Source: Chalara sp. BL73 (taxonomy: Eukaryota; Ascomycota; Leotiomycetes; Helotiales). Taken from it: 64,000 bases of DNA. The notes under the pieces are model-generated. The model was not told the origin of the DNA and did no database searches. It worked only from the letters and a program-made list of their open reading frames with translations. Positions within the stretch are counted from its first letter, which is position 1. Each line of letters opens with the position of its first letter. Where the stretch lies: NCBI GenBank assembly GCA_918026815.1, contig CAKJVC010000006.1, positions 1,798,001 through 1,862,000 on the forward strand, in the 5' to 3' direction. A program made the translations under genes and the position numbers. Shown one piece after another: positions 1 through 63,344 of the stretch.

Positions 1-697
1 TTATTTGTTGCTTTAGAGCTTCAAGAACCGTCCGCACGAGTCCGAGTCGGCCTGCCACCTCACGGAAGGCCACTGGGAGGCCCTTCGAATCCGTAGCCTC
101 ATCGTAAACCTTCTTTGTTCCATCCAATATGGCGATAATGGATGATATGAGACCGAGAACCGAAATGAGTCCGTCTCCAGAGATGGGTGCGTATGCGGGC
201 ATCTGTTCGAAGCCCTTAGGCAACGAAGGTTCCATCTGAGTCACCTCCTCAACAGCCTTTGCCAGCTGATCTCTCGTTCTTTGGGTTGTCACTTCTGGAG
301 ACCTCGTTGCCAAGAGCTGCAAGTTGTCTAGAATCCCCCTAACCAAATCCTCTACACGACCACCTTTTCCAATACTTCGTGCAGCTTTCACATATCGATC
401 CCACCTCGATTCACCCTCTTCTGGCATGACCTTCATAAACAACTCCTGAAGTTGGATAACCTGAGCTTTGCAATCCTCTAAAGTAGGTGTAAATGCAGTC
501 TTTGTCGCCTCGTCCATATTCTTAACGTATATTTCCGCATCTTCGAGGAGCTTTGAGATAAGAGGGAGCTTGGTGGCCGATCTCTTGAAATTTGTTGGAA
601 GACCCGCTTCGTCTTTGACAGCCTCGTAAACTTGGATGGTAGTATCGATAGCAGAGATCATGCCAAGGGCAGGACCTGCCGCCTCGATACCTGACAT
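1..697 (-). CDS. Tandem SesA-like protein (partial, runs off the window)
   Basis: Open frame of 232 codons on the minus strand from the ATG at 695-697 to the window edge, with no stop. The start MSGIEAAGPALGMISAIDTT and the following helical stretch look like the SesA / NACHT-N-terminal family (PF17107-type), the all-helical N-terminal domain of many fungal NLRs. From about residue 172 a second copy of the same kind of segment begins (GLISVLGLISSIIAILDGTK), so the domain is duplicated in tandem. In known proteins such a domain is a cell-death effector or signalling module followed by a NACHT or NB-ARC domain; what follows here lies outside the window. The family call is from recognised sequence character only; that it belongs to an NLR is inference. 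Confidence 0.7.
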   Translation of the reverse strand, partial: MSGIEAAGPALGMISAIDTTIQVYEAVKDEAGLPTNFKRSATKLPLISKLLEDAEIYVKNMDEATKTAFTPTLEDCKAQVIQLQELFMKVMPEEGESRWDRYVKAARSIGKGGRVEDLVRGILDNLQLLATRSPEVTTQRTRDQLAKAVEEVTQMEPSLPKGFEQMPAYAPISGDGLISVLGLISSIIAILDGTKKVYDEATDSKGLPVAFREVAGRLGLVRTVLEALKQQI

Positions 698-1649
698 GCT
701 TATCGTATAAAGCTAGTAGTGATTAGGAACATGTAGTACGAACCTGAAAGGTCCTTACTAGGCTGCTGCGAACGAGAAGAGCAGACGCTGGATTGTGGCA
801 GGAGTCTAATCTCTGGGCTGCAAAAGCCCTGAAGTACAGAGTACACTACATATATAAACGGTCGCGACAATGATGATTCTAGATGTAGATTGCAGTGTAA
901 CGCGGTGGAGTCGACGGAGAGGATGAAGAGCTAAATAGGAGAAGGAGAAGCTGATCTGCGGCCCGCTCCTATCGTTAGCGTGGCGGGGAAGCACAGCCTA
1001 TTTTTAGGGCGAAGTAGGGGTGAGAATCACCTGATAACTTACGCCTATGCCCTTTTAAAACAACGAGATTCGTTCTAGTCATGTTGTATCAATAAACAAG
1101 CGCAGATCTTACTCATAAGAGTCGTGATATTGTATTATGATGTTCTTATGGTCACGTGTTATCGGTGGGTCAAGAATCTTTAGTGGGTGTGGAGGGGAAG
1201 CCGATTTTGAAAGCGACTGTAGTTCGTGCAAGCAGTACCTTGGGGTACAACCATGCACGGGTGCCCAGCCACAGTGTCAGGAAGTGGAGCCCGCTTAAAA
1301 AAGTTATCTATAAATTTAGCGACACGAATTTCGCCATTTACTGTATAAAAGCTTGATAAACAGCAGCTTTTAATACAGTGCTATACGTTGTACTGAACCC
1401 TTAGTCAGAGAAAAAAGACTTTCCGGACTAGTTTGGATCTGCACTCTTCCTCAAAAGCTCCAAAACTTCATTCTTTGTAGCCGATTAAGCTCGTTCACAG
1501 ATTTTATACAGTTCTTTGTCTATTTTTCTTTTTGCAATAATACTGAGCTTTTCGCACTTTTGTCTTGCCGTTTCTTTTTGTTTGAAGAGCAATGCTTTGT
1601 CTTTTTCTGGAAAAGGAAACGAACGTACTAAGACCCTGGGAAGCAAAAG
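698..1649. other. Gene-free stretch
   Basis: AT-rich intergenic sequence upstream of the SesA-like gene. Short open frames here have no recognisable family character. I see no repeat, inverted terminal repeat or RNA gene. Confidence 0.5.
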
Positions 1650-10101: not shown

Positions 10102-10356
10102 TGTAACAACTCAAGCTAAACAGGGATCTCGATCCGTAGATCCAGGTGGAAGGACTCAGAGGTGTGAACAACTATCAATTATTATAACGAAGAGAACAAG
10201 CTACGGACAGAAGAAGGGAAGGAAAGCAGTGCTCTATATACAGGAACTGGCCGGAGGCCAGGATAGGCGAGCTTCGCGGTGTCCGGTGCTGTGTTCTGTC
10301 CGAGCTCTGGGGCATCCGGTGGTGAGCTCCGCCCAGAGAAGGCCAGGGCCGTGACA
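10102..10356 (-). repeat. Solo LTR, family L2, TSD AACGT
   Basis: 255 bp; in plus orientation it reads TGTAACAACTCAAGC…GGGCCGTGACA, the reverse of the other L2 copies. Exact duplications AACGT at 10097-10101 and 10357-10361. Inserted in the kinase pseudogene. Confidence 0.9.
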
Positions 10357-10530
10357 AACGTGTTATCGAAAAAGAAAAAGCGACTTTACAAAATAGGAGT
10401 ATATAGTTAAGTTCGCTTGGCCGACCGATAAAAGACAGCGGGAAAAAGAACTGTTAAAGTTGGCCAAAAATAAAAAGTCACGAGCATTGCTGTGTAGCTC
10501 AATTATAAGCAAATTATTATCGACGGTAAC

Positions 10531-10987
10531 TGTAACAGCCAGAGCCGGTTAGAGACGGATATCATAACAGCTACAGCAGCCACAAGCTTGCAGCTACAGC
10601 AGCTACAGGCTGACAGCTACAGCACAGCTGGAAGGATATAAGGAACAGCTAGAGCTTTCAGGAGGAAGGCAAGCTTGAGTTTATCTGCTGGACTGACAAG
10701 CATACTTCTAATATCAATACATCGCTGTTTCTATGACATTGCAGTCACGTGTTCTTACCTGTTATATTGCAATCCCTCCTGTTGCCCTCTTGTCACGGAG
10801 AAATGGTTGGCACGTGCTCATGAGCGTGCGACCCACTTTTCCTAGGCTATAAGAGCCTACCTGGCTTGATCTCTAGTTCTACAAGTAAGAATACACACAT
10901 GCCGAGAACGTTGCGCTAGCTCTCATGAACTAGAACCGAGCCCTCGCGGGATGTGCGAGCTGCTCCGTCACACCTCTATTTGTTACA
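10531..10987 (+). repeat. LTR, family L4, carrying a nested L3 LTR
   Basis: Starts TGTAACAGCCAGAGCC and ends CTCTATTTGTTACA. The region 10791-10972 is a later insertion, so the native length is about 270 bp. No matching 5-bp duplication flanks it (GTAAC left, GTTGG right), so it may be a recombined or truncated element rather than a simple solo LTR. Confidence 0.7.
10791..10972 (+). repeat. Solo LTR, family L3, nested, TSD CCTCT
   Basis: 182 bp, TGTCACGGAGAAATGG…CTGCTCCGTCACA, flanked by CCTCT at 10786-10790 and 10973-10977, inside the L4 copy. The near-palindromic ends (CACGGAG / CTCCGTCAC) are distinctive. Confidence 0.85.
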
Positions 10988-12203: not shown

Positions 12204-13169
12204 CTAGTTTGCCACATGTATACCAGTAACCACACCCTTGGCGTTATTAGCCCAAACTGACCCAGTGTTGCCTTTAATCTCCGCCGACGTGTCTTTATTG
12301 CCCTTTATACCAGTGATCACATTTTCGGCACTCCCTGATACATAAATATTTCCAGTCTTACCGTCGATGCGGAGCTGATACACTGGAGTTTTCGCCTATA
12401 GAGCTGTCAGAATACGCCATAGATCCAGGTCATGGATGCTCTACTTGCTTACCACTCTATCTTCCGGTTTGTCTAGTCCAAGCAACTCAACGTCAGCTCT
12501 GTCAAGCTTGACGGTTCCATCTGGTAGAGGCTCTGAGTTAGAAAAATCTCTTGAAAGCAACCTGCTTCATGAGTTACGTACCGTCCTGTTGTGCCCTGCC
12601 TTTCAGCCGGCCGACAAGCTGCATCTCCTCTCCCAATGCTGCCTTCAGCCTGTTGTTCACTTCTGCAAGTTCACTGAGGTTCACGCGAAAGCCATTTTGT
12701 AGACTTCCAACCAAGCCGACGAGCGTCACGGACATCATGGACGTGAGTTCGCCTCTGTCCCTATCCAGGTTTCCCAGGAGCTCATTGAGCTGCTCGTCGT
12801 CTTGCTTCCCGGATATGAGGGCGTGCATAAAGCGACGTATGATATTTTTCACCTGGTAGTCTCGAAGCTTGTTGGCAAAATCCTTCAGGAGTGTAGCATC
12901 CTCCACGATGGCATCAAGTTGCTGTCTGACGACATGGGTTTGTAGCCTAGCTTCCTCCTTGATAAGGTTGAGCGCCTGGACTAGTCTCTCTAGCCGCTTA
13001 AAGGCATCTTTGACTTTCGCTGGCACTGCCTTCATTTGTTCCACTGCATTCCGGATTTCTTGAACGAGCGAAAGGGCTGCGCCGGCGAGGCTGATGATGG
13101 AAGCGGCGGTTTCCTGAAACCACACGTGTTAGCATGCATTTGCAAGCACACATTCTTAAGCCATACCAT
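12204..13169 (-). CDS. Helical (SesA-like) effector candidate with two C-terminal amyloid-type motifs
   Basis: Four exons: 13169-13167 (ATG only), 13113-12582, 12532-12453, 12395-12204. Introns are 53, 49 and 57 bp with CTAAC/CTGAC branch sites; phases fit and the sum is 268 aa. Residues 2 to about 175 are all-helical, starting ETAASIISLAGAALSLVQEI, of SesA/HeLo-like character. The last exon (residues 206-268) carries two motif copies: TGNIYVSGSAENVITGI (219-235, 12306-12356) and TGSVWANNAKGVVTGI (249-264, 12219-12266). The protein ends five residues later. The same motif begins the NLR at 14761-20092 and recurs in the divergent gene at 13692. In HET-S-type systems such C-terminal repeats are amyloid modules nucleated by the NLR, releasing a membrane-toxic N-terminal domain. 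That role is inferred here. Weak point: exon 1 is a single codon with a GTATGG donor. Confidence 0.75.
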
Positions 13170-13691
13170 CTTTCTTCCGCCACGCAGCTGCTAGTGCATA
13201 GATTCATGTACGCCTAGAGATGGAACGAAGCGAGGAGGGATGAAGATAAAGCCAGGAGGCTGAGCGGAAAACGGAGTGAGGTAGCACAGCCCCTCCATTG
13301 CCGGGACGTTGGGTGGCAGCAATCGTGCCCAACCCGCATCCCAGCCTGTCCTAAACAAGAGTGGTGTGGTACGGTGCAAAAGTGGAAGGCTCCTTGCGGA
13401 GTCACGGCAGAACCTATTTTTGGACTGTAACCGGCTTTGATTCTGATAGGTTGACTGTTCCGGAATATCTTCATGACAAGCCGCGGCCGGCCGAAGCTGA
13501 TTGGACATGAGACTGCGGGTGACCACCGGGTGTGGTGACACACAGCAACATCGCAACACCACAAACTTTCGCACCAATGGACTCTTGCTCTGGAGGTGGC
13601 GGTTTTCTGTATTTAATTCCTGCAGCCCAGAGAGCTCTCGATTCTTCACTCAGCACCCGCAGGCAACTGTACCTACCAGAACGATATCAAG
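13170..13691. promoter_or_regulatory. Divergent promoter region between the two motif genes
   Basis: 521 bp between the start codons of the minus-strand helical protein and the plus-strand 127-aa protein. A shared upstream region would allow co-expression of two proteins carrying the same motif. No specific binding site identified; the regulatory role is inferred from gene order only. Confidence 0.4.
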
Positions 13692-14191
13692 ATGTCTAGC
13701 CGTCCGACCCAGATTCGCACCCCTGATGATTTGAAGAAACAGGAGGCGCGGGCGGCGGAACAGAGACGTCACGAACAACAACCAGTAGACGTATGTAACA
13801 CCAACCCTCAGGCCGCTTGTTCTCTTGCAACCTACCTCGAGTGTTGACTGTTGGGAGTCTATGGCAGTGCGTAATGAGGTACATGTACTAATTGATGATT
13901 CGATAGAGACCAGCCAATACGCAACTAATCATTGACGCCCCAACCGGGAACATCAATTCGCCAGGCGACGTTAAAAATGCGACTAGTGGCATGGACATAA
14001 CAAGTTCGGATCCTGTTAAGGCGGAGATTCGTCAAAAGACTGGAGATATGAGTGGTGCTAGTATTTCGGATGCCAGCAGTGGAATTTCGTACAAACAGTA
14101 TGAAACACCCTTTTCCGCAGTTGGACACTCTACCCAGACGCACCCACTGATGCCATCCCCTCGCAGGCCCAACACGAGCGAAACCCCATGA
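13692..14191 (+). CDS. Small protein with two amyloid-type motifs and no effector domain
   Basis: Exons 13692-13790 and 13907-14191 (intron of 116 bp, GTATGT donor, TACTAAT branch, GATAG acceptor) give 127 aa ending in TGA. Residues 1-33 are charged and helix-prone (DDLKKQEARAAEQRRHEQQ). Residues 46-62 (TGNINSPGDVKNATSGM) and 78-93 (TGDMSGASISDASSGI) match the motif of the neighbouring helical protein and NLR. Flanking text is also shared with the helical protein: QL-x-I-D before copy one and A-E-I before copy two, so the two tails are paralogous. The remaining tail is Ser/Thr/Pro-rich. It could be an adaptor, an inhibitor or a decayed effector; nothing in it suggests catalysis. The motif copies are less regular than in the neighbours. 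Confidence 0.65.
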
Positions 14192-14299
14192 GTCAGCGTC
14201 AGGGTAACTTCAACGTCGAGTGTATAGAGAACTTTGATGCATAGAAATTGATACGGGAATTCTCTACACAACAGCTCTGATAATAAACAATCTTGACAT

Positions 14300-14736
14300 G
14301 TTGTTTTGTCCGCTTTTGACACGTTAGATTTTGGAGTGGGCCAATGGGCCAAGTTGCACTACTCGAGATGCGTGACGCTCGTTCACGTTCCTCCGAGATC
14401 CTCTCTCTTCATCCCACTTTACACGACCGATCTTGATGTTGTCGTACCAGTGACCATCACCGAGTGTCTCATCGAAGCCATCAACATATACGTGTGCGGT
14501 CTTTGCCTCACGAAGAATGCCGTTAGCGTAGTCAGATGTTGTGACAGTGGCATGCAGGTTGTCATGTACGCGCTGGCCAGCGCGGATCGTGGAGCTGTGG
14601 AATATGGATCTGGCTCACAGCTATGTTTTAATTCAAAATGTCCCTGGAGACAATATGAGGAAAGTAAAGACTTACCTACCAGAAGAGCAACGAAACACCC
14701 AAGTCCCACCTCAACAGCACGTAACATCGACGGCAT
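14300..14736 (-). CDS. Possible small secreted protein, exon structure unresolved
   Basis: The minus strand starts ATG CCG TCG at 14736 with a signal-like MLRAVEVGLGCFVALLV followed by a GTAAGT donor. Further down, another frame is open for about 65 codons with protein-like composition (AHVYVDGFDETLGDGHWYDN) and ends at a TAA near 14330. I could not find an intron that joins the two with correct phase, so this is either a gene with an unseen splice, a relic, or chance. It sits between the motif gene and the 3' end of the NLR. Confidence 0.3.
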
Positions 14737-14760
14737 CTAGTCAGTTACGTGCTCCTCGAG

Positions 14761-17700
14761 TTACAAGTCTAACTCTAGAATAGTAACCCGCCCTGAGCGA
14801 TGCCCCATTGCCAATTTGTTACCCTGGGTCGTATATACGAAGGCTTGACGATCAAAAGGAAGAAGAAGGACTTTGCAAGCATTCCGAGTAACCCAGCGGC
14901 CTGTGTCATCCAGAGAGTACAATGGATTGCCCTTAAGCGGATTTCCGTCGGGTGAGAAGGCTACCGCCTCAACTGAGCATGAGTGGCCACTTAGAGTCTC
15001 TAGTTCCTTTGTACTAGTGAGATTCCAGAGCCGAACTGTACGATCCCCAGAAGCGAAAGCTAACTGGCTGCCGTCTGGTGAGAAGGCTACCGTACGAGAA
15101 TAACCTACATGGCCATTCAGCGTATGTAGCAGCTCTCCAGTAGCGGGATCCCAGAGCCGAACTGTACCATCCACTGAACCGGAGGCTAGCCGGCTGCCGT
15201 CTGGTGAAAAGGCCACCGTCTCAACCGAGCCTGAATGGCCTTTCAGCGTATGTAGTTCCTCTCCAGTAGTGAGATCCCAGAGCCGGACAATATCATCCGT
15301 TGAAGGGAAGGCTCGCCGGCTGCCGTCTGGCGAGAATGCCATAACCCTATCCGGACCTAAAGAGCCTCTCAGCGTGTGTAATTCTACTCCAGTAGCGGAA
15401 TCCCAGAGCCGAATTGTCTTATCCGGTGAACCGGAAGCTAGCCGGCTGCCGTCTGGGTAAAATACCACCATCTCAACCAAACTGGAATGGCCTGTTAGCA
15501 TATGTAGTTTTTCTCCAGTGGCGATATCCCAGAGCCGAATTGTCTTATCCCATGAACCGGAGGCTAACCGGCTGCTGTCTGGTGAAAAAGCTACCGCCTG
15601 AACCGGCCCTGAATGACCTTTCAGCGTGTATAGTTCCTCTCCAGTAGCGAGAGCCCAGAGCCGAACTGTACCATCCATTGAACCGGAGGCTAACCCACTG
15701 CTGTCCGGTGAAAATGCCACCGTCTTAACTGAGCCTGAATGGCCTTTCAGCTTTCGTAGTTCCTTTCCGGCGGCGAGATCCCAGAGCCGAACTGTACCAT
15801 CCACTGAACCGGAGGCTAACCGGCTGCCGCCTGGTGAAAAGGTTACCGTCTCAACCGAACCTGAGCAACTTTTCAGCGTCTGTAGTTCCTCTCCAGTGGT
15901 GACGTCCCAGAGCCGAATTGTCTCATCCGATGAACCGGAGGCTAAGCGGCTGCTATCTGGTGAAAAAGTTACCGTCCGAACCGGGCCCGAATGGCCTCTC
16001 AACGTGTGTAGTTCCTCTCCAGTAGCGAGATCCCAGAGCCGAACTGTATGATCCCACGCACCGGAGGCTAGCCGGCTACCATCTAGTGAGAAGGCTACCG
16101 TCAAAACCAAGTTTGAATGGCCTTTTAGCGTGTGTAGTTTCTTTCCATCCCAGAGCTGAATCGTATAATCCTTCGAACCGCAGGATAGCTGGCTGCCGTC
16201 TGGCGAGAAGGCTATAGCCTTGTCCGAACCTGAGTAACCTTTCAGCGTCTGTAGTTCCTCTCCAGTGGTGACATCCCAGAGCCGAATTGTCTTATCCGAT
16301 GAACCGGAGGCTAACCGGCTGCCGTCTGGTGAAAAGGCCACCGCCTCAACCGAGTCTAAATGGCCTCTCAGCTTCTGTAACTCCTTTCCAGTAGCCAGAT
16401 CCCAAAGCTGAACTGTATGATCCTTTGAAGCGAAGGCTAGCCGGCTGCTGTCTGGCGAGAACGCTACTCTCTCACAGAAACGTGAACGGCCCTTTGCTGT
16501 ATGACAGGCTAGCCGGCTGTTGTCTGGCGAGAAGCTGTGCTCACACCATGAACCTAGATGGCCTTTCAGCCTCTGCAGTGTCGCTCCAGTAACAGGATCC
16601 CAGAGACGTATTATTCCCCTCGATATGGAGACTAGTCGGGTACCATCTGGCGAGAAGGCTACCATGTCAACGGAGTCTGAATCGAGATCCCAGAGCGGGA
16701 CTGGCGTCTGTGATTGAGAATCGAGATCCCAGAGCCGAACTGTATAATCCCACGAACCGGATGCTAGCCGGCTGCCGTCTGGTGAAAAGGCTACCGTCTG
16801 AACCAGGGATGAATGGCCTGTCAACGTGTGTAGTTTCTCTCCAGTAGCTGGATCCCAGAGACGAACTGTGCCATCCATTGAACCGGAGGCTAGCCGGCTG
16901 CTGTCTGGTGAGAAGGCTACGGTTTCAACCGAACTTTTATGGCCTTCCAACGTGTGTAGTTCCTGTCCGGTGGCAGGATTCCATAGCCGAACTATACTAT
17001 CGAGTTGCCACGTATCGTTTGACGCCTTTATCTTAATTGGTGTCGATCCAAAGGTTAGCCACTTGCTATTTGCTGAGAAGGCTACTGTCTTAATCCAACC
17101 AAAAGGGCCTTTCAACGTGTGTAGTTTCTCTCCACTAGTAGGATCCCATAGCTGAATTGTCGTATCTGATGAACCAGAAACCAGCCAGACGCCATTTGGC
17201 GAGAAAGCCACCGTCTCGACAGAACCTAAATGGCCTCTCAGCGTTTGTAGTTCCTCTCCGGTGGTGACGCCCCAGAGCCGAATTGTCTTATCCGATGAAC
17301 CGGAGGCTAACCGGCTACCGTCTGGTGAAAAAGCTACCGTTTGAACCGGGCCTGAATGGCCTTTCAGCGTGTATAGTTCCTCTCCAGTAGCGAGAGCCCA
17401 GAGCCGAACTGTACCATCCTTTGAACCGGAGGCTAGCAGACTGCCGTTTGGTGAAAAGACTACTGTCCGAACCAAGCTTAAATGGCCTTTCAGCGTTTGT
17501 TGTTCTTCTCCAGTAGCGGGATCCCAGAGCCGAACCGTATGATCCCTCGAACCGTAGGCCAGCCGGCTGCTGTGTGGGGAGAAGACCATGGCGCTTCTTG
17601 AGCCTGAGTAGCCTTTCAGCGTCTGTAGTTCCCCCCCAGTCGCGAGATCCCAGATCCGAATTGTCCCATCCAACGAACCGGAAGCCAGACGGCCGCCATC

Positions 17701-20092
17701 TGGCGAGAAGGCTACCACCTCAACCCAATTTGAATGGCTTGTCAGCGTTTGCAGACAAGGATCCCAATCTTCTTCCACAACTGGCAGTTTCTCCTTCCTA
17801 ATCCAAGCCGGTATTTCGTCAAAGAACTGCTTCCGAATTACACTTCTTGCTGGACTAAAAAGGAGAGCAGAACTATAAACTTGCAGAGGTGCCTCCTCAA
17901 TGATAGATCTGAGGCTGAATATAAACCGTCCGGCGTCATGCACAAAAGAGCGTAGTTCTAGTTGTTTATTAGGCTGCTGGAAGTCATTCAAGTTAGCATT
18001 TGGATTGTCTGAAACTAATACTCCAGAATACTACTTACTGTAAGAGACCTCGATATTCTTTCCACCGCAGCAATGCCGTCTGACAGACTCCCTACTAGAC
18101 CAAGAGCTTCAACCCAATGGAGAAAATGTTTCTGGATGAAGCAGTGAACTATATCATTATCGTAGAGTCGAGTGTCGCTCTCCCAATGATGGTCGACCCA
18201 GTACCGGCATGCGTACTGCACGAACTGAGGAAGATGCTTTTCTCTCTCACTCTGCGGCTTGTCGCTAGCAAAAGCATCCCATCTCCCAAGTTTACACACG
18301 TCCTTCTTTAAGTGTTTTTGCATAACTCCCAGGCATCTGATAAATAGTTCTTTGTGAGCTTTCTTTTTGTGGATGACGAAGATGCCGAAGACGCAATGAT
18401 TAAGTAGCAGTTCAAACGCCTCCAGAAGCAAAAGTAAAAACTGTGAACGTCTAGGACTTCCCAGAAGAAAAAGGCAGATCGTGATGACCAAAACGGCATA
18501 AGCCAGATACCGTAGCAAGAGGTCCTGTGCAAGTAGGAGAATGGCTGCGAATAGGAAATGGTCCAGCCAGCGAAACCGGTAAGAATATTTTCGTAACCAG
18601 TCCACAAGAAGCGATAGACCAGGCCATGGAAATTTGCATACGAAAGCCGGGGGAGCGAACAACGAAATGCGCTGGAGATATTCATTGAGTGATAGATGAA
18701 CCAGAACTAGCTTTCTGTCTCTCGAATTTCCATTGTTCGTAGATGATAGAATGTGTCTGCAGTTGTGGAGGTGTACCGACACAGCCTCAGGGTCCAGCCC
18801 TGTTGCAGTCGATAGTTCAGCCTCGGTCGGTGGGCGAAAGGCTATGCATATGTATCGAATGATTCTCGCTGAGTCCTCCGGTTTGAAACGGACGAGACTC
18901 TTCCTTTTGCCTCCGAGAGCTTCGAGAAGCATACGGTTATACATGGAGGGAAGTCCTGTCGGAAGTAACTTATCAAGGATAGCTTGATCTTGGCCACCCA
19001 CGATTTTTTTCATGGCCGCAACGTCGTCTTCCAACATCCTTATTGCCAATGCTACCCAGAGGAATGTTCCCTTTGCCCGTTCGGACAAAATGCTCACGAA
19101 CGACTCAAGTTCCCCCACCTCCAGATTCTTCTCCGTAGGATTTCCAACTTTCCAGCGAATGAATTTGCGGATATCTTCCGATGTTATTTTTTCGTATTTC
19201 TGATCGTCTAGATCGATCTTGAGGCCGGTCCGGCTTCCCCTCTCTGGCGGGCGGGCGGCAATTACCGTCTTGAAACTTCGGCTCCCTTCGGGGCCGCACA
19301 TTGCTTCTAACCTCCCTGTTAAAAACTTAATTGACTCGCGATCGCATTCGTCGAGACCATCCAACACGAAATATGTCTGTCGTTGAACATTGCTAACATA
19401 ATCTTCGAGGATTTTCCAGAACTCTGGACGAGGAATGTTACTGAAGAGGTCCGTATGCCGATCGTTGCGTAGACGCCAAATTCCATCAATCAACCGCTTG
19501 TCAGAATCACCAGACTCGTCAGATTGTAGAAGCTGATATAGAAGGTATAGTAAAACAGCATTTGCTGTGTTTCGGAGACTGTTCCTTCTGTCGCAAAAGA
19601 ACTCCAAAACCAATGGTTTGGATTCGTTGGATTTCAGTTTATCGACAATGTAGGCAGAGAGGCAGGTCTTTCCTTTCCCGGGACGGCCGTGTATCCACAG
19701 GAGGTGATTGTCTGGACCGGTAAGCCATGGTTTAAACTGATCTCGGTCGTCCAGGATCCATTTGCAAGTGCCGGGAGTGACCTCTTTCTTATGTAGGTCA
19801 GATCCGATTATAGTGAGGAGCGCTTTCTTGAGAGCTTCTCGTTTCGCTTCTCGTTTCGCTTCCGGGCTCTCTTTTATGGCTGGAATTTCTAGTCTCCCTC
19901 TTAATATCACTCGATTCACTCTAGACACGTTTCTGAATAGCCATTTAAATATACTAAAAACTTACCAACGTTCAGGGAGATTCCTGTGTTCACATTTGCA
20001 GCATCTCCACCAACAGTAATACTTCCAGTCTGTCCAGTACGTACGGAGAAGGGAAAAAGGCTCCAGAGCCCCGAAAGCCGTAGAGAAAACAT
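14761..20092 (-). CDS. NACHT-WD40 NLR with N-terminal amyloid-type motif
   Basis: Exons 20092-19966, ~19879-18039 and 17976-14761 (introns ~86 and 62 bp; the second has GTAAGT, GCTAAC and CCAG) give about 1727 aa. Exon 1 starts at the first ATG after a stop and holds the motif TGSITVGGDAANVNTGI (residues 22-38, 19979-20029), shared with the two genes at 12.2-14.2 kb. NACHT: Walker A GRPGKGKT (~107-114), Walker B FVLDGLDECD (~213-222). A ~67-residue hydrophobic stretch with 2-3 membrane-helix-like segments (~480-546) lies before the conserved HLKKDVCKLG/QHFLHW part. From ~residue 700 come about 22 WD40 repeats of ~42 aa (unit RLASGSxDGTVRLWD), some imperfect. The family senses ligands through the repeats, oligomerises and templates amyloid folding of a partner effector. 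Uncertain: acceptor of intron 1 (TTCCAG chosen by phase). Confidence 0.8.
14900..17760 (-). repeat. WD40-coding tandem repeat array (~126-bp unit, ~22 units)
   Basis: Near-regular 126-bp repeats encoding the WD40 domains of the NLR. Neighbouring and distant units share long identical blocks such as the coding of SPDGSRLASGS and VRLWD. Such internally similar arrays in fungal NLRs are known to expand, shrink and diversify. Unit 6 has a 13-residue insertion and units 8-10 are partly collapsed. Confidence 0.85.
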
Positions 20093-20770: not shown

Positions 20771-20979
20771 TGTAACAGCCAGGGCCGGTTAGAGACGGAT
20801 ATCATAACAGCTACAGCAGCCACAGGCACGCAGCTACAGCAGCCACAGGCATACAGCTACAACAGCCATAAGGCATACCGCTACAGCAGCCACAAGCATA
20901 CCACTACAACAGCCACAGGCATACAGCTACAGCAGGCATACAGCTACAGCAGGCATACAGCTACAGCAGCTACAGGCTC
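20771..20979 (+). repeat. L4 LTR fragment with expanded CAGCTACAG minisatellite
   Basis: Starts like L4 (TGTAACAGCCAGGGCC…) and then holds repeated ~20-bp units of the type CAGCCACAGGCATACAGCTA. It stops abruptly where the L2 LTR starts at 20980. Confidence 0.65.
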
Positions 20980-21236
20980 TGTCACGGCCCTGGTCCTTTC
21001 CGCCTAGGAGCTCAGCACCGGATGCTCCAGAGCTCGGACGGGGGCTCAGCGCCGGACACCGCAAAGCTCACCTATCCTGGCCTCCAGTCAGTTCCTGTAT
21101 ATAGAACACTGCTTTCCTTCCCTTCTTCTGCCTGTAGCTTGTTCTCTTAGTTATAACAATTGATAGTTGTTTACACCTCTGAGTCCTTCTATCTAGATCC
21201 ACTGATCGAGATCCCTATTCAGCTTGAGTTGTTACA
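20980..21236 (+). repeat. L2 LTR copy without target duplication
   Basis: 257 bp, TGTCACGGCCCTGG…GAGTTGTTACA. The flanks GGCTC and CTGGT do not match, unlike the three other L2 copies. Left side is an L4 fragment, right side a transposase fragment, so this is probably a recombination junction or one end of a lost element. Confidence 0.7.
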
Positions 21237-21447: not shown

Positions 21448-21841
21448 ATCGTCCACTCTGTGCAAAAGTTAGAGCTTGATTTAAGGATTAATTTGCAATA
21501 AGTACCGTCTTTTTTACAATTGATTTGGTGGAGTTATCGCGCTTTTTGATTATTTTGCTGACGTTGAGACTTTTACGTGAGGCACCTGCCTCAGTAATCG
21601 ATTTGGAAAGCTATATAGGATATGGTAAATGGTAATAGTGAGCATGCTGCCTGAGGAATCGATTTTGGAAAACATAACCTGGATATGGTAATATTGCTGC
21701 GAGGCTGAAGTCGATATGAGCGTAGCCTGGATCCAACCTTAACTCCCAACTCAATGAATAACTTCGCATACATGCCGACTCTGCGACAAATATTCACTGA
21801 GAACTCCTTTTCCTGATATTCTTGAAATGCTGGTCTGACTA

Positions 21842-24800
21842 ATGCGTCTTTTACAAGTAGAACGCGAGAGCGCTGGCCAGCTCAGCCTGACCGAGGACTT
21901 CGTCGGCAACAATATCCCCAAATATGCTATCCTTTCGCACACATGGGGAGCGGATACAGAAGAGGTTACTTTCCATGACCTGAAAAATCGTACTGGTGGG
22001 AACAAGTCTGGCTATAAGAAAATCAACTTCTGCAGAGACCAAGCCGAGCGCGACGGCCTGCAATACTTTTGGGTGGATACTTGTTGCATCGACAAAGCGA
22101 ACAGTACTGAGCTCGCAGAAGCTATTACTTCTATGTTTAGCTGGTACCGAAAAGCGAATAAATGCTACGTTTATTTATCAGATGTCTCGACAAATGAACA
22201 AGATCAAATCGACCCGTTTTTACAGTCTTGGCAATCTGCTTTTCGGGAAAGTCGATGGTTTACTCGTGGCTGGACCCTTCAAGAACTTATTGCTCCGCAA
22301 TCGGTTGAATTCTTTTGCTTGAATGGCAATCGACTCGGTGACAAGAAATCGATGGAGCGACAGATTCATCAGATAACAAAAATTGCAATTCCAGCTCTTC
22401 GAGGAACTCCTTTATCTGCGTTCAGCGTGGAGGATCGAATGTTATAGGCAGAAAATCGCCAGACCAAGCGTGAAGAAGATAGGGCTTATTCTTTGCTAGG
22501 AATTTTCGAGACCCCTATGTCACCTTTGTATGGTGAAGGCGCGGAGAGAGCATTCGGGAGGCTTCGAGAAGAGCTTTACAGGCATTCAAAAAAACGTCAG
22601 CTCGACGAACTATCGACTGTCTCACATACTTTTAATTCTAATAAACGACTAAAAACTCGACATAGCCAAATTTCCTCCGTTCCTTCCAGTCGCAACTTGA
22701 CTTATCTTGATCCTGAATGGCTTTCCGACTCTAAAAACTTGGTGCATAGTAGTAAGTACAAACTGTTGATCCTTTATAGTAAAAGAACGCTGACTGGCGG
22801 CTAATAATTAGACAACCTACTAAAGACCGAAAATGAGCCAAGTACGAAAGTTAACTATAGTATTGACGCCATTACAATACAGTCACTAATAGACCAGCTC
22901 TATTTCACGAAAATTGACGAGCGCCTAATAAGTCTAACGGCCGCCCAAGGAACAACTTGCCGCTGGTTTTTTACCACCCCCGAATACACATCCTGGCATG
23001 ACGTGACGCAACAGTTACACCATAGCGGCTTTCTTTGGATCAAAGGTAATCCTGGCACCGGAAAGTCTACTTTAATGAAACTCCTTTTCGAAAAAAATAA
23101 GCTCAGCACAAAAGTCGACCCTTTAAAAATCACGCTCTCGTTTTTTTTCCTTTCGCGGGGCACGGTCGAAGAAAAGTCTACGACGGGTTTATACCGCTCT
23201 CTTCTACACCAACTTTTTGAAAAAGCGGTAGAGTTGAAGGATAGTTTAGAGTGGATAACAGCCGATAGTGCGAGATTTATTCAGCGGAATGGATGGCATG
23301 AAAAAGCGTTGAAGCAAACGTTGACGCATGCTATTCAGAAGCTTGAGAGTCGGTCGTTAACGATATTCGTTGATGCGCTAGATGAATGCGATGACAACCA
23401 GGCTGCGGGTATAGTTTGCTTTTTTGAAGAGCTATGCGATCGCGCGAGAGAAGAGCAGGTTCGGTTGCAGATTTGCTTTTCTAGTCGGCATTATCCAACT
23501 GTCGTTATCCAGAAAGGCATCGAAGTAACTCTAGAAGACGAAATCGGGCATACAGAAGACATTGAACAATATATCAAGTTAAAACTCAAAATAGGCAAAA
23601 TGGCGAAAGTCGAAATACTCCGGTCCGAAATTCTCGAGAAATCGTCTTTAATTTTTCTTTGGGTTGTTTTGGTTGTTGATATTCTTAATTCTGAATACCG
23701 CAATGGCTCCGCTTTTAGCAAAATCCGCGAACGTCTCAAGGAAATCCCACCGAAATTGACTGACTTGTTTAAAATGATTCTTACGCGAGATGAAAAGAAC
23801 CTCGAACGGCTGCAAGTTTGTCTTAAATGGATCCTTTTCGCGACTCGTCCTCTTAAGCCGCAAGAACTCTACTTCGCCGTCCAGCTTGGTCTCGACAAAA
23901 AGTGCTCGGGCTATTGGGACCTAGAAGATATAGATTTGGAGCAGATAAAAACTTTCGTAAGAAATTCTTCCAAAGGTTTAGCGGAAGTCACACGGAACAA
24001 AGCTTCCGAGGTCCAATTTATCCATGAGTCTGTTCGAAACTTTTTACTGGGTAAATACGAAGGCTAGTGGTCTGGGAGTTCTGGCAATTTCGTGGGGCAT
24101 AGCCACGAAATTTTGAGGAATTGCTGCTTGGCTCAGCTGCACGCTTCAATCAACAAATACGTCGATATACCGGACCCTTTACCGCAGGCTTCTAAAGCAG
24201 CACAGTTACGAGAGCAAATTAGCTCTAAGTTTCCATTTCTCGAATATTCAATTCTGAATGTACTTTGCCACGCCGACAATGCTCAACAGAATGAGATAGA
24301 GCAAAGATATTTTTTTCCCGATTTCCCTTTTCAAAAGTGGATATTCCTTAACAATATTCTCGAACAGTACGATATCCGACGATATACGGATTCGGTCAGT
24401 TTTATTTATATTCTTGCAGAAAAGAACTTAGCCGCCCTTATTCGAATCCATCCTATGAGTAGTTTTTGCTTTGATGTTGAGAATGAGCGATATGGGCTGC
24501 CAATTTTTGCCGCTTTGGCTACCGGGAGCCATGAAGCAGTCCAGACTTTTTTAGAGGTCCAAGCCGAAATTCAGCCACAAGAACCTTCGTTTCGCCGTTT
24601 ATGCAAAAAGTACTCTGAAAATAAAAACAAACGCGTTGACTTTGGCCGCAACTTCACTTTCTCGCGGCAAAAAGGTGTTTCCTCTTATGTTGGAGAAAAA
24701 AGCAACGAGGTAATCCTTTTTTTTCTTTGTGTTTTAGACAAGCTCGACATCGAGTCAAAGGATAAGTTCAATCGGACACCGCTGTGGTGGGCTGTACGGA

Positions 24801-25651
24801 ATGGGCACGAAGCTGTCATCAAGCTGTTGCTTAAGAAAGGCGCTAATACCGAGTCCCAAGACATAAATGGCCAGACGCCGCTGTGGTGGGCTGCATGGAA
24901 TGGGAACGAGGATATTGTCAAGCTGTTACTCGAGAACGGCGCTAATGTCGAGTCCCAAGACATAAATGGCCAGACGCCGCTGTTGGGGGCTGCACGGAAT
25001 GGACACGAGGACATTGTCAAGCTGTTGCTTGAGAAAGGCGCTGATGTTGAGTCCCAAGACATAAATGGCCGGACACCGCTGTGGTGGGCTGCATGGAATG
25101 GGCGCAAGGGCGTTGTCAAGCTGTTGCTTGAGAAAGGCGCTAATGTCGAATCCCAAGACAAGAATGGCCAGACGCTGCTGTTGGGGGCTGCATGGAATGG
25201 GAACGAGGCTGTCGTCAAGCTGTTGCTTGAGAAAAGCGCTAATATCGAGTCCCAAGACAAGAATGGCCAGACGCCGCTGTTGGGGGCTGCATGGAAAGGG
25301 AACGAGGATATTGTCAAGCTGTTGCTTGAGAAAGGCGCTGATGTCGAGTCCCAAGACAAGAATGGCCAGACGCCGCTGTTGGGGGCTGCACGGAATGGGA
25401 ACAAGGCTGTCGTCAAGCTGTTGCTCGAGGAAGGCGCTGATGTTGAGTCCCGAGACAAGAATGGCCAGACGCCGCTGTCGTGGGCTGCATGGAAAGGGGA
25501 TGAGGACATTGTCAAGCTGTTGCTCGAGAAAGGTGCTGATGTCGAATCCCAAGACAAGAATGGCCGGACGCCGCTGTGGTGGGCTGCGTGGAGTGGGTGC
25601 AAGGGCGTCGTCAAGCTGCTGCCTGAGAAGAAAGGCTCAGAACCACAATAA
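21842..25651 (+). CDS. HET-NACHT-ankyrin incompatibility-type protein interrupted by two in-frame UAG codons
   Basis: One frame runs from ATG 21842 to TAA 25649-25651. HET domain: residues ~1-240, with YAILSHTWG, YFWVDTCCIDK and RGWTLQELIAP. TAG at 22445-22447 stands where HET domains have tryptophan (RM-[x]-W-A before the REEDxAYSLLG motif). A 60-bp intron at 22752-22811 (GTAAGT, GCTGAC, TTAG) removes two TAA codons and keeps the frame. NACHT: GNPGTGKST at ~23050 and FVDALDECD at ~23370. A second TAG at 24065-24067 lies between NACHT and the linker (expected residue uncertain). Then come nine near-identical ankyrin repeats; the last is degraded. HET domains trigger cell death in vegetative incompatibility. 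With only two nonsense codons in ~3.8 kb this is a young pseudogene, or a gene needing readthrough or editing. Confidence 0.75.
24766..25648 (+). repeat. Ankyrin-coding tandem array (99-bp unit, nine copies)
   Basis: Nine units of 33 codons of type NGQTPL-x-x-AA-x-NG-(x4)-VKLLLEKGA. Units differ mainly at a few residues before and after the first helix (WW/LG, AW/AR, HED/NEA/RKG), the usual pattern of a recently amplified recognition array. Confidence 0.9.
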
Positions 25652-34224: not shown

Positions 34225-36045
34225 AGTCCGTGCACCCCCATTCCGAACACCCCCCCATTCCGAACACCTAAATAAGCGAGTACCAACCAAACGAAAACAA
34301 GTATAATTAAATAACTACTGAACTAAAATACAATCCAAAGTAGAATCAGATTCATTAGCCTCTTCTTCATCTTCCTTTTCAAGCTCAGCTTCTCCTGCAG
34401 CTATTTGTGTCTTTTTGATCTTATCAATGTCCGCAAACTTGGAATTTGGACTAGTCCTGACTTTCATTCGTTTTCTTGGTCTGGCCTTTTCTAATTGAAC
34501 TTCTAAAGACTGTATTTTGTAGCTATGATCTGCTAGAACACTTTCTTGCTTTTCAAACCCTTTTATAATTTTTCTAAACAAGAGTCTTTGTGTTGAAAAG
34601 CTGTTGTCTTGAAGTATTTGGAACTTAGCTACTTGAGCTTTAATATCGATCGATTTTTGAGGAGTAGTAAAGATTACTTGTTGAGAATCGATATGCGAGC
34701 TATTATTGAAGCTTTCTGTAGCTTGTTGAGTGTCCTTTTTTGAATTGCTATTCTCTAGGAGCAAAGGGCTCAAAAGAGGTTTAGCCATCGATTTTGGCCA
34801 TAAACCAGTTGCTTTCCACCCAGCTTTGATTATTTTGGCCGATAAAGCTTCCGTTCTAGCTATCTGATAGCAAGCAAGAAAATTTTGCTTTCCAATTGGG
34901 CTAGAATCGGTCAAAAGGCTCAAATGACTAACTGCCGTACGATAGTGACTTTTGAGTGATGAAAAGACTGACAAATCCAAAGGTTGTAAGACATGTGATG
35001 TATGTGGAGGCAAAAAAAGCAAATAAATGTTGTTTTGATAGCAAAGGTACATAAAATCAGTAGTTTCATGACTGCCATGGCCGTCCAAAATAAGTAGCCT
35101 AGGCTCGAGAGTGTAAGTTTGAGGAAGAAACACTTTTTCTAGCCATTCTATTGCTGTAGAGTCCGAAGTCCAGGCATTATCAGTAGCTGTAAATTTCCAC
35201 TTTTTATAAAGACTTAGATCTTGTGGAAAACATTGTTGTTGGACTGATTTTCCTTTGAAAATTACAAGTGGAGAAAGAGCTTTGCCAGTGGCTGAAATAC
35301 ATTCGATAAATGAAGTCCATGCACGAGAACCAGGCTGTTTTTTTTGAATAGAACGTCTTTCAGAACTTCCTACTACTAGGCCATTTGCTCCATAGCCTTC
35401 CATAATTCCTGATTCGTCCATATTGTATCGATTTTCGGGTTTGATAGCGGCAATAGCAGGAATAGCTAGTCGTTGAAACCAAGGCTTAATTATAGCAGTT
35501 GTAGCATTATTAACTCTTGTAGAATCAATATTTCGAGCTCTTTTGGTTCGTAAAATAGGATTACGTCGTAAAAAGCTTTCTATCCAACGTTTCCCTAGCT
35601 TTTTATGGTCGTTTTTAATTGCTAAAAGTCGACTAGCAAATTCTCGGATTTGGCCATGAGTCAAAGGAACACCTAGTGCTTCTTGGGCCAAAACCCAAGT
35701 AGCTAAGTGATTTTCTTGCACTTTTGATAGCCTCTGTTGACTTTCAGCTGCGAAAGTATGGTTTTCACTACCATGGTTGCGGTTCTGGAGTGTGCTTAAT
35801 GGAATCCCCCATTCTCGACTAGCTAGTCGTAAAGACTTCCCATTTCTGACGTCATTAAGAGCCGCAAGCAAATCTTGTTCGGTGTATCGATGCATAATTA
35901 CTTGAAGATAAAGAGATTCAAATTTGGAATTATATAAACTAGAATTGGTTTAATAAGTGATTTTCTTATTGAACTGGCGGTCTAGAAATTCGCTTATTTT
36001 AGGTGTTCGGAATGGGGGGGTGTTCGGAATGGGGGTGCACGGACT
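34225..36045 (-). mobile_element. pogo/Fot-type DNA transposon, intact
   Basis: 1821 bp between TA dinucleotides (34223-34224 and 36046-36047). The inverted ends AGTCCGTGCACCCCCATTCC match exactly. Each end holds two tandem copies of the GTTCGGAATGGGGG motif, a plausible double transposase-binding site. One transposase gene inside. The matching ends and the intact gene suggest recent activity. Confidence 0.88.
34315..35895 (-). CDS. pogo/Fot-family transposase
   Basis: 526 aa, ATG at 35893-35895. N-terminal psq-like helix-turn-helix (residues ~5-45) and CENP-B-type DNA-binding helix-turn-helix (~70-130, GKRWIESFLRRNP). DDE_1 catalytic core: YNMDESGIMEG (first Asp), LLILDGHGSHETTDF (second Asp) and PPHTSHVLQPLDLSVFSSLK (third Asp), i.e. 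the DDD triad of pogo/Fot elements. The C-terminus is Lys/Glu-rich. No internal stop, unlike most other transposon genes in the window. Confidence 0.9.
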   Translation of the reverse strand: MHRYTEQDLLAALNDVRNGKSLRLASREWGIPLSTLQNRNHGSENHTFAAESQQRLSKVQENHLATWVLAQEALGVPLTHGQIREFASRLLAIKNDHKKLGKRWIESFLRRNPILRTKRARNIDSTRVNNATTAIIKPWFQRLAIPAIAAIKPENRYNMDESGIMEGYGANGLVVGSSERRSIQKKQPGSRAWTSFIECISATGKALSPLVIFKGKSVQQQCFPQDLSLYKKWKFTATDNAWTSDSTAIEWLEKVFLPQTYTLEPRLLILDGHGSHETTDFMYLCYQNNIYLLFLPPHTSHVLQPLDLSVFSSLKSHYRTAVSHLSLLTDSSPIGKQNFLACYQIARTEALSAKIIKAGWKATGLWPKSMAKPLLSPLLLENSNSKKDTQQATESFNNSSHIDSQQVIFTTPQKSIDIKAQVAKFQILQDNSFSTQRLLFRKIIKGFEKQESVLADHSYKIQSLEVQLEKARPRKRMKVRTSPNSKFADIDKIKKTQIAAGEAELEKEDEEEANESDSTLDCILVQ

Positions 36046-56317: not shown

Positions 56318-56670
56318 TGTCACGGCTTTAGCCTTCCGGGGCGGAGCTTACTACCGGATACCCTAGAGCTCGGACAGAGCACAGCACCGGACACCCCAAA
56401 GCTCGGATAAAGCACAGCACCGGACACCTCAAAGCTCGGATAGAGCACAGCACCGGACAACCCAAAGCTCAGGCGGAGCTCAGCACCGGACACCGCAAAG
56501 CTCGCCTACTCTGGCCTCCGGCCAGTTCCTGTATATAGAGCACTGCTTTCCTTCCTTTCTTCTGTCCGTAGCTTGTTCTTTTAGTTATAACAATTAATAG
56601 TTGTTTACACTTCTGAGTTTTTTTATCTAGATCCACGGATCGAGATTTCTATTCAGCTTGAGTTGTTACA
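56318..56670 (+). repeat. Solo LTR, family L2, inside a MULE intron, TSD ATACT
   Basis: 353 bp, TGTCACGGCTTTAGCC…TTGAGTTGTTACA, flanked by ATACT at 56313-56317 and 56671-56675. Longer than other L2 copies because a ~33-bp unit (AGCTCGGATAGAGCACAGCA…) is repeated about four times. Donor GTAAGC (56280) and acceptor TTTGTAG (56680-56686) of the host intron are intact. Confidence 0.93.
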
Positions 56671-57795
56671 ATACTAATTTTTGTAGGTATTACAAGCTCA
56701 GGCATGACATTTTCAATTGGGTTTTGTTTTTTGCCAGGTGAAACAAAACAAAACTTTGTGTGGGCTTTTCAATGTTTTCAAAGCCTTGGTATCAATCCTG
56801 TTCTTATGGCTATGGACAGTGACCAGGCTCAAAAAAATGCATCAGAAGAAGTGTTTCCACATATTTCTACGCTACTTTGTGTTTGGCACGTTAATCAATG
56901 TGTTTTGGCCAAGTGCAAAAGTGTAGTTGGAAACGAAAACTGGCCAGCATTTGAAGCTGCCTGGCGTACAGTTATTCAGTCACCTACAATTGAGCAATTT
57001 GATCAGTCTTGGCTTGAATTTCAAACTCGATATTCAACTCCTAAAACTAAGCAGTGCGTGACATATCTGCAAAATGAATGGCTAAAGCCTGGCCAAAAAG
57101 AACGTTTAGTTGCAGCTTGGACAAATCAACACTTACATTTTGGCATTCGAGTTACGTCACGTGTTGAAAGTGCTCACGCATATATTAAGCGTTATTTAGG
57201 AGGCAAAAAAACCAAAGGAGACCTTTATTCGTCATAGCTACTTATTGAAGCGGCTGTAATTAACCAAGTTACAGCTGTGTCAACTCGTACGGCTATACAA
57301 CAAGACCGAGCACCTCTTGATATAGACGTGAAGCTATTTCAAGGCTGTTTTGGAGTTATTACATAGCACGCACTCCGGCTTGTACAGCAGCATTTACAGC
57401 TTGTTTCACTGCCTTTACAGCCTTGTACAAAAAGCTTTACACGCTCAATGGGCTTGCCTTGTGCACATATATGTGATATAAAAAGGTCTACAGGCCTTAT
57501 TCCGTCAGACTTTCACGAGCACTGGTACTGGGACCGTCAAAGTACTTTACAGCCACTTCTTGACCCGCTGCGAGCTAGTAAACAAAATACAGCTAATTTG
57601 CGAACAGCTCGTACGGGCCGTATTCTTTCTACAAGTGAAAAGCTACTTGTAAAGCAGCCTCCTAAATGCTCAGCATGCCATAGGAAAGGGCATACAATGA
57701 ACAGTTCTAACTGTCCAGTAAGGCTACAAGCATCAATTGCTAAACAAAGTCAAATTCTTCTTGATATAGACATAGAAGCAAGGCAGCCACTAGCG

Positions 57796-61700: not shown

Positions 61701-63344
61701 TGTAGAAGTATCTACTTCTTCCATCCCTCGTACGTGGTCTTTTGTTTTGGCCAAGTACCCGTAATTGATATGGTTGAACCTTCTATGCATCAAGCTAAGC
61801 TCTTCTTTTTGCTTCGAAGTAGCTATATGCATAGATCTATTACAAAATAGTCGATTTTGCAGCCGAAACAGGCCTTTTCTGTAATCCCGATATGCAACCA
61901 CGCTTTCTTTGGCAGGATGCTGAATAACAGCCTGGTTTTTCTCAAACGTAACCCGAGCTCCTTTGTCAGTCAATTGTTGCAAAGATACAATACAATTTGA
62001 CTCAAATCGCTCCAAATACAATACTTCTGACAGTTCGAGATCTATTGGCCCTTTCTGGCCGACAGTCTGAATAACAACCGAGCCTATTCCTGTTGCTTCT
62101 ACTACTGTATTGTCTCCAATAGTAATGTGAATAGGCTGTATTTCTCTGAACGTACAAAACGTCGACAGATCACCAGTCATGTGATCACTTGCTCCAGAAT
62201 CAAGGAACCACTCAGGTGCTTGAGAATCACTCATAGGCCTTCTAGCCATATAGCCAACCTTCCGTGGGCTTTCATTCTCTTCTTTTGCCTCCTTGGTATC
62301 GCTCTGATCCTGGCCGTTGCCTGATTTTTGCTCTTTTTCACCCTTCTTTCCCTTCCCTCTAAAAGGAAGCGGATCTTTAATAGGCTTCGAGCAATTCCTA
62401 ACAAAATGTCCTTTCTCGCCACAGTTGTAGCACGTGACATTGCTTCTGTTTGCGGCCATAGCATGCCTTCCCGTACCACTCTTTGCTTCCTGCTCTTTCA
62501 GCGAAGCTTCTTCTCCCAAAAGAAGAGTCTTAACTATTTCTACATCTCCGCGATGTGTGTTTGCAATAGTTCTGACTGTTGAGTAGTCACGTGGTAAGCC
62601 TCTCAAAATAGCTCCCGTATGGCTGACGGTACTTATATCGCCACCACAAGCCTTTAGCTCGCTAACGATTTTTTGAATACGCGTCAAGTACGTCAGCATG
62701 CTCTCTCCTGATTCCATGCTTGTAAAATCCAGTTGTGCCAGTAACAGACCCTGTTGATTTGCTGCTTTGCTCTCGAAGTATGCCTTAATAGCATCCCATA
62801 CCTCCTTGGCTGTTTTGAGGGTACTATAGTCAGGCCACACTTTCTTGGAGATAATCAACCTTAAAGTGTGATAAGCGTCTCTGTATCTGAAGCGTTCTTC
62901 CTCTTTAGCATCAGTAGCTTGCTCCGTTTCGACGTACATCCATTCTCTGCGTTGATACAATACCGATTCCGCATCATCCTTCCACGTATAGTAGTTCATG
63001 TGCGTAAGCTTAGGAATCTTGATCCCTCCAATAGCAATCGTATCAACCTTCCCTATACTGCTTTCAATTGACATCTTGACTGTCGTGAGTGATTCGTTGT
63101 TTTGAGCGCTGTCGAAGCTCACCGGGTTTCATAACCTGTTCAAATAGAGAAAGTCACGTGGCCTTCAGAGAGTATAGGGCAAACAAGTATCAATTGCTGA
63201 AGGTTATAGAACCTAAACTACAGGAGAGAATCCCTCTACTTATAGAGGTGTGATACCCACATGTCAACACACTGATGCCTACAGGTGCCTACTGGTGCCT
63301 ACAATAGACTTTAGGCATGGTCCTTAGACCTAACCTGCTCAACA
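58772..63344 (-). mobile_element. Complete Copia LTR retrotransposon (family L1), identical LTRs
   Basis: 4573 bp. LTRs 58772-58979 and 63137-63344, 208 bp each, look identical; ends TGTTCAAATAGAG…TGCTCAACA. Target duplication CAAAG at 58767-58771 and 63345-63349. Next to the upstream LTR (minus strand) is GGTTATGAAACCC, resembling the primer site used by copia-type elements that prime on cleaved initiator tRNA-Met. It is inserted in the right inverted repeat of the MULE and is the youngest insertion here. Confidence 0.96.
58989..63074 (-). CDS. Copia Gag-Pol polyprotein with two in-frame TAG codons
   Basis: One frame from ATG 63072-63074 to 58989, ~1360 codons. UBN2-type Gag (residues ~1-210, ILRGLPRDYSTVRT), zinc knuckle CYNCGEKGHFVRNC, protease WFLDSGASDHMTGD, GAG-pre-integrase (MHRRFNHINYGYL), integrase (YMDIWGPA, CDSAPEF, PEQNGPSERLNRT), RT (ARGFTQEYGRDYFETYAPVA, AVYVDDLLIVGP) and RNase H (TYSDSDWAGDEADRKSTSGQ). 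TAG at 61284-61286 comes right after SERLNRT (expected residue uncertain). TAG at 60396-60398 stands where Copia RT has Trp in K-W-V-F-K. Both are followed by GTA. Nothing else is broken. Confidence 0.85.

Follow-up and report, generated by a model that had tools for sequence, protein, structure and literature searches.

The window analysed here is a stretch of 64,000 nucleotides (contig CAKJVC010000006.1, positions 1,798,001 to 1,862,000) within a 58.66-Mb assembly of 199 contigs from a filamentous fungus, as judged by its introns, its gene families and the relatives of its proteins. Between 12.2 and 20.1 kb of the window, three genes were modelled with consensus introns. A receptor gene on the minus strand (20092-19966, 19879-18039 and 17976-14761) encodes 1727 amino acids, and an effector gene on the same strand (13169-13167, 13113-12582, 12520-12453 and 12395-12204) encodes 264 amino acids. 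The small-protein gene (13692-13790 and 13907-14191; 127 amino acids) lies between them on the plus strand, together with one short open reading frame. A preliminary description of this DNA had listed five peptides of one short motif in the three genes, and all five are encoded exactly where it placed them.

Exon 1 of the receptor gene (19966..20092) carries one motif copy, r0 (TGSITVGGDAANVNTGI; 19979-20029, residues 22-38), and is followed by a GTAAGT donor at 19965. Exon 2 (18039..19879) encodes a NACHT/NPHP3_N NTPase (NPHP3_N, E 3.4e-31; NACHT, E 4e-7) and exon 3 (14761..17976, stop codon at 14761-14763) a WD40 array of mostly 42-residue units. PF00400 matched 18 stretches of the receptor, and the 15 complete 42-residue units showed a mean pairwise identity of 0.64 with a maximum of 0.86. 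The protein is composed of a short N-terminal motif, a NACHT domain and repeats. The motif-bearing exon of 127 bp is needed in the model, because after Met1 the next in-frame methionine is residue 236 and no other methionine precedes the P-loop at residue 107. Splicing of exon 1 was scanned with donors at 19956-19990 and introns of 40-120 bases; the motif was kept in all seven open variants listed, partly by construction, as most of the donors tried sit past the motif end. The acceptor of the model (intron end 19880) was set by frame and consensus and lies just beyond the scan; other in-frame acceptors exist. The interval between NACHT and WD40 (residues 480-545) contains membrane-helix-like hydrophobic stretches (19-mer means 2.37, 1.84 and 1.65), which is odd for a cytosolic receptor. 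In the whole genome, NPHP3_N gave 152 matches at E 0.001, fragments and stop-bearing copies included.

The first exon of the effector gene (13167..13169, minus strand) consists of the ATG only. Exon 2 (12582..13113) encodes a helical SesA/HeLo/MLKL-like domain, exon 3 (12453..12520) a linker that is similar in relatives (DGTVxLDxADVxxLGL), and exon 4 (12204..12395) is the motif exon with r1 (12306-12356), r2 (12219-12266) and the stop. The neighbour of the receptor gene bears the receptor's motif at its C-terminus. Hydropathy of the effector peaks at its N-terminus (19-mer of residues 3-21, mean 1.45). Of 7995 candidates scored in a profile search with the effector, 16 proteins reached E 0.1 or better. 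Seven relatives of about 280 residues (P0005-P0010 and P0012, from Fusarium, Monosporascus, Emericellopsis and Phialocephala) share the domain and the linker at 35-37% identity. In our reading, relatives predicted without introns break at the modelled effector introns; P0001, for one, ends by reading through the intron 2 donor in the same way. P0001, P0003 and P0004 have Q (the CAG acceptor) directly ahead of the domain, as at the acceptor of effector intron 1. SesA was listed as a match for all five relatives scanned (E 7e-7 to 0.022), above the cut-off only for P0012 (29.8 versus 26.3 bits). The assignment of the effector to a SesA/HeLo-like domain is made by family.

The tails of the seven relatives contain two repeats of a different, HRAM-like form (RIxTGN/D). 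A profile of these tails scored 16.0 bits against the effector tail plus linker, with 8.5 bits for the best of 299 scored shuffles. It gave 1.8 bits against the motif exon alone (shuffles up to 6.5), 4.0 bits against the small protein (shuffles up to 5.9) and 0.0 bits against the receptor N-terminus (shuffles up to 3.7). Profile-profile comparison of the relatives' tails with the motif (hhalign) gave E 0.072 and 0.082 in another register, the best path (E 0.072) pairing TGNI with TGNI. That the motif descended directly from the RIxTGN tails seemed attractive at first and was not borne out; two registers compete and neither is significant. As judged from these comparisons, the body and linker of the effector are conserved, and its signalling tail is unlike that of its relatives and resembles the motif of the adjoining receptor.

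The genome holds two good paralogues of the effector (L011 and the partial L013) and three weaker ones (E 0.02-0.19). The closest, L011 (C7:1558682-1562137), is a single frame of 852 residues with NACHT upstream and, by eye, ankyrin-like repeats; the C-terminal side of NACHT is an unusual place for an effector-like helical domain. In both L011 and L013 a tail like that of the relatives is present as a single, degenerate copy, and the cassette motif is missing (profile test for L011).

Motif sharing was assessed by ungapped scoring of 61,862 stop-free 17-mers of the window. The receptor copy TGSITVGGDAANVNTGI, effector r1 TGNIYVSGSAENVITGI and copy 1 of the small protein TGNINSPGDVKNATSGM were mutual best matches, with scores of 49 (receptor and effector), 37 (receptor and small protein) and 36 (effector and small protein). 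Next-best scores were 22-26 for the three queries, 22 for the receptor query. A log-linear fit to the tail put the number of chance matches expected per window at 2e-4 to 5e-4 for a score of 49 (receptor and effector queries) and at 0.015 to 0.05 for 36-37, so that a lone match at 36-37 would be unconvincing. The scan also took in 41 loci from this genome (268,892 bases, overlaps included), 20 of them chosen as receptor loci and 8 as NACHT matches. Across these, the receptor and effector copies had nothing above 30 outside the cassette; the small-protein copy had nothing above 25 across the window and the 20 receptor loci. BLASTP aligned the effector and the small protein with E 3e-7 (for that one pair) over the whole double-repeat exon, with 21 identical residues. 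Chance similarity was ruled out for the three main copies by the exhaustive scoring of window and loci; for the second repeats score alone did not rule it out. Searches of the own genome with the effector tail, the small protein and the receptor N-terminus returned only the queries themselves and one match of E 2.15 (small protein), at a low sensitivity, since 1, 6 and 1 candidates survived the first look.

Exon 1 of the small-protein gene (13692..13790, plus strand) encodes 33 residues, and exon 2 (13907..14191) two divergent motif copies (13943-13993 and 14039-14086) followed by a tail of 34 residues. The motif exons of this gene and of the effector gene both start in phase 0, five and six codons, respectively, ahead of QLxID, as though a single exon had been distributed to the two genes. 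Identical codons were used at 7 of the 21 residues shared by these exons (7.2 expected by chance), and bases were identical at 34, 31 and 20 of 60 first, second and third codon positions. The receptor shares 1 of 7 codons with the small protein at common residues and 5 of 11 with the effector. Between genes, codons for common residues are roughly as different as codons without any relationship would be. The proteins are alike and the DNA has drifted, which argues for long amino-acid constraint or convergence and not for a recent copy. Recent copying of one motif exon was ruled out by the saturated synonymous positions. Effector r1 and r2, with 6 of 7 shared codons identical (one codon omitted for a gap), are the only pair that looks recently homogenised. 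Co-evolution within clusters is reported in the available text of PMC3321046 for sigma motifs and of PMC4518210 for HRAM motifs.

The small protein differs from its neighbours within the motif. Positions 6 and 13 are valine in the receptor and in effector r1, and S and A in copy 1 of the small protein, which has a proline at position 7. Copy 2 also has no valine at these positions. Position 13 is the cleaner difference, because effector r2 likewise has no valine at 6 and keeps it at 13. We read these changes as pointing to a weaker amyloid partner, which would join an assembly and not propagate it (a cap). The effector and small-protein genes are transcribed divergently; the 522 bp that separate them (13170..13691) are possibly a shared promoter, and this arrangement would suit joint expression. 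The small protein may be a built-in modulator. The more specific proposal of a dedicated motif-only regulator, a two-repeat cap or sponge in a cassette with a private motif class, is speculative and we hold it with low confidence.

The small gene could instead be a functionless, decaying relic of a second effector. Its motif copies are divergent, no Pfam domain was found in it above cut-off, and the protein collection held no relative at E 1 (one candidate). The frame is nevertheless open and has consensus splice sites, and the shared residues have been kept while synonymous sites became saturated. We regard a relic as less likely than not, yet no less plausible than a cap.

The preliminary description had left the class of the motif open. 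Consensus checks covered the first 100 residues of the receptor, the effector and the small protein, and the repeats of sigma (GxGxQFN / GGTQN, PF17106), the PP core (NxGxQxGxN), the PUASM core (FxGxGxQxxGxGxF) and the GDQN pattern (NxxxGxQYxxxGxGDQN) were all absent; nor did the HRAM core match. A Pfam profile check of the motif exons showed no signalling-motif family, the sigma-bearing proteins of the same genome scored at best 24 against the motif, and four motif strings of 9-11 residues occurred in no paper searched in the open-licence literature. By pattern and profile the motif is set apart from the named classes tested and is apparently unclassified. It may still be one of the unclassified motifs of PMC9815663 (NLR17, 19, 20, 34 or the basidiomycete group). 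Of the 17 residues of the receptor copy one is charged, and at a place where effector r1 has E, r2 has K. HRAMs, too, are reported to have receptor copies of low charge and repeats that complement each other, though the place of this E/K pair is not on the list in the available part of PMC4518210.

Sigma-type receptors occur in the same genome at three places (L043, L044 and L045; E 6.6e-5 to 0.0047), with an NPHP3_N match a short way downstream in each case; one place exceeds the cut-off by itself and another when its neighbours are counted in. At all three, by eye, the sigma-type motif stands behind a SesA-like domain, the layout of an all-in-one receptor.

A strongly diverged HRAM subfamily, which would make the cassette an ordinary relative of HET-S/NWD2, would explain the two effector repeats with one receptor copy, their C-terminal place, the 13-residue loop (6-18 residues are reported for nearly all HRAMs in the accessible text of PMC4518210) and the [VI]xTG ending, which is that of the relatives' RIxTGN/D repeats. 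We compared the proteins with the HRAM criteria (G19, hydrophobic residues at 5, 8, 10, 16 and 18, and R/K at 15 of a 21-residue repeat), using the core pattern and not the published profile, at every glycine with three shifts. In three of the relatives, 5 of 6 repeats have R15 and the placements match 3-4 of 5 core positions, which in the first repeats takes the deletion of a residue. The best placements in the cassette gave 3 of 5 for the receptor and for r1 (an insertion of one residue being needed to place either at the motif), 2 of 5 for r2 and 1 of 5 for the small protein. K/R is missing from position 15 in the receptor and effector placements shown, and other glycines of the receptor likewise reached 3 of 5. 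The tail profile of the relatives missed the motif exon, the small protein and the receptor N-terminus, and the profile-profile matches fell in another register at E 0.072 and 0.082. PF11558 did not match the cassette proteins, and none was found across the genome in a search whose control was silent too. Membership in the HRAM class is therefore doubtful in our view.

It is improbable that the motif is an outlier of the PUASM type that moved onto a SesA effector. The receptor's GSITVGGD resembles GNITVGGD in a Colletotrichum receptor peptide (score 38, shuffle p 0.004) that forms amyloid-like aggregates according to the available text of PMC9815663, and among 350,081 9-mers no other reached 30 or more against the receptor 9-mer. 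However, only 1 of 10 comparisons (five copies with two peptides) gave p <0.05. A sigma sequence taken as control reached 38 as well with the second PUASM peptide (p 0.012), which indicates that glycine-rich motifs readily resemble one another, and two repeats of the relatives gave p 0.04-0.05. The core FxGxGxQxxGxGxF is absent, PUASM is reported only with PNP_UDP effectors, and the PUASM peptide was not found across the genome in a search without control.

The architecture of the locus is already known from the NWD2/HET-S and het-eN/sesA cassettes. As in NWD2/HET-S of Podospora anserina (HRAM1), a motif-NACHT-WD40 receptor stands beside a putative helical killer with two C-terminal repeats, and the WD units have 42 residues, the length given for NWD2 in the available part of PMC4344463; the motif sequence and core pattern, the SesA-type effector and the third, motif-only gene are different here. 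The het-eN/sesA/sesB sigma locus of Nectria haematococca likewise has three clustered genes with one common motif and a SesA-type effector, and its receptor motif was once missed because a 5' intron went unnoticed (PMC3321046, as far as available); its third gene, however, encodes a lipase-type effector, and the sigma repeats are not found here. PNT1/HELLP/SBP (PP motif) also combines one receptor with two motif-bearing partners (available text of PMC5485727), but the PP core GxQxG is absent here and our third partner has no recognised domain. PUASM (NLR32) has in common an 8-mer of the receptor motif (GxITVGGD) and differs in core pattern and in its PNP_UDP effector. The GDQN pair of Fusarium oxysporum Fo5176 is another recent new motif, on a probable NOD-like receptor (NLR) and a SesA protein (available part of PMC12261475), with a pattern absent here and with two genes only.

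By analogy with these systems, the three genes probably form an immune cassette with amyloid signalling in a filamentous fungus of ascomycete type. The receptor-effector part of this proposal, made already in the preliminary description, is well supported, because an N-terminal motif on a NACHT-WD40 protein meets two C-terminal copies on a neighbouring SesA/HeLo-like protein, and the motif copies are similar to one another and not to the tails of the effector's relatives. The claim of one motif in three neighbouring genes held for the three main copies as mutual best matches; both second repeats are weak when taken alone, and are supported by position, spacing and the flanking AEI...TG.

Several results weigh against the cassette proposal or parts of it. 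Effector r2 and repeat 2 of the small protein scored 15 against each other, and in the ungapped scan neither picked out the remaining copies. The scan covered 20 of 150 listed receptor places, and no relatives with the same motif were found in searches that are insensitive to so short a motif. The Pfam matches of the effector itself were below the cut-offs (MLKL_N, 1.6e-4; SesA, 0.0048), an unrelated helical match was comparable (Nup188, 6.7e-4), and sequence searches of the PDB returned no HeLo or MLKL chain. The effector-type domain is also not always a separate effector, because in L011 it is joined to a NACHT frame on the C-terminal side.

A likely mechanism for the cassette can be proposed from NWD2/HET-S, short motifs of this sort being known to pass on death signals by amyloid templating. 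The WD40 array of the receptor would bind a non-self or modified-self cue. NACHT would then oligomerise, so that the N-terminal motifs would be gathered and stacked as a cross-beta seed. The effector is a probable membrane-killing protein: its freed helical domain would put the hydrophobic N-terminal helix into the membrane, and the cell would die. In the least certain step, the small protein would become part of this assembly and act as its modulator, in the likeliest case a weak partner that caps it. It is improbable that the shared motif is instead a docking element that folds without forming amyloid. Ordinary beta hairpins made of short repeats and TG turns could dock in this way, but position, repeat number and genomic pairing fit published amyloid cassettes, and we know of no other fungal system of this layout.

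Several further features lie around the three genes. Short frames on the minus strand between the receptor stop and the small gene (14324-14736) are possibly a two-exon gene; a 96-residue frame among them had no Pfam match at E 0.01. The cassette is flanked by copies of the same dispersed repeats at 10102-10790 and 20771-21236 (inverted, 190 nucleotides, 91%; direct, 94 nucleotides, 91%). Head-to-head with the receptor gene, a plus-strand gene (21839-25648) encodes a HET domain (5.6e-15), NACHT/NPHP3_N and ankyrin repeats (99-bp units). Its HET frame is ended by an in-frame stop at about 22445, and the gene is possibly a paired or broken receptor. At the left edge of the window (1-712 plus 4 kb leftward, L042, minus strand), one frame contains two SesA stretches, followed on the same strand by sequence resembling a HET domain by eye, with no tie to the cassette. 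Frames of Tc5/DDE and MULE transposases and a copia-type gag were found at 34318-35949, 56662-57234 and 61290-63128. Nothing useful came from scanning the window with Rfam and for tRNAs, nor from PADLOC and NCBIfam searches.

Only about a dozen families of amyloid-signalling motifs have been classified, according to the available part of PMC12261475, and fungal additions arrive singly, as with PUASM and GDQN. What appears to be new at this locus is an apparently unclassified motif together with a divergently transcribed motif-only protein. A conserved effector body with a tail that matches the receptor and not the effector's relatives bears on the origin of private signalling channels. The pyrin-only and CARD-only decoys of mammals would have an amyloid analogue in a motif-only regulator of this kind. 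Our literature search found no motif-only or decoy proteins of such systems in open-licence papers; the nearest remarks, in the parts of the sources available, concern atypically short Fibularhizoctonia NLRs bearing amyloid-like motifs and a sigma-tailed Nectria protein encoded apart from any receptor gene (PMC3321046). A natural motif-only partner would offer a handle on how cells stop a self-templating death signal from firing spontaneously.

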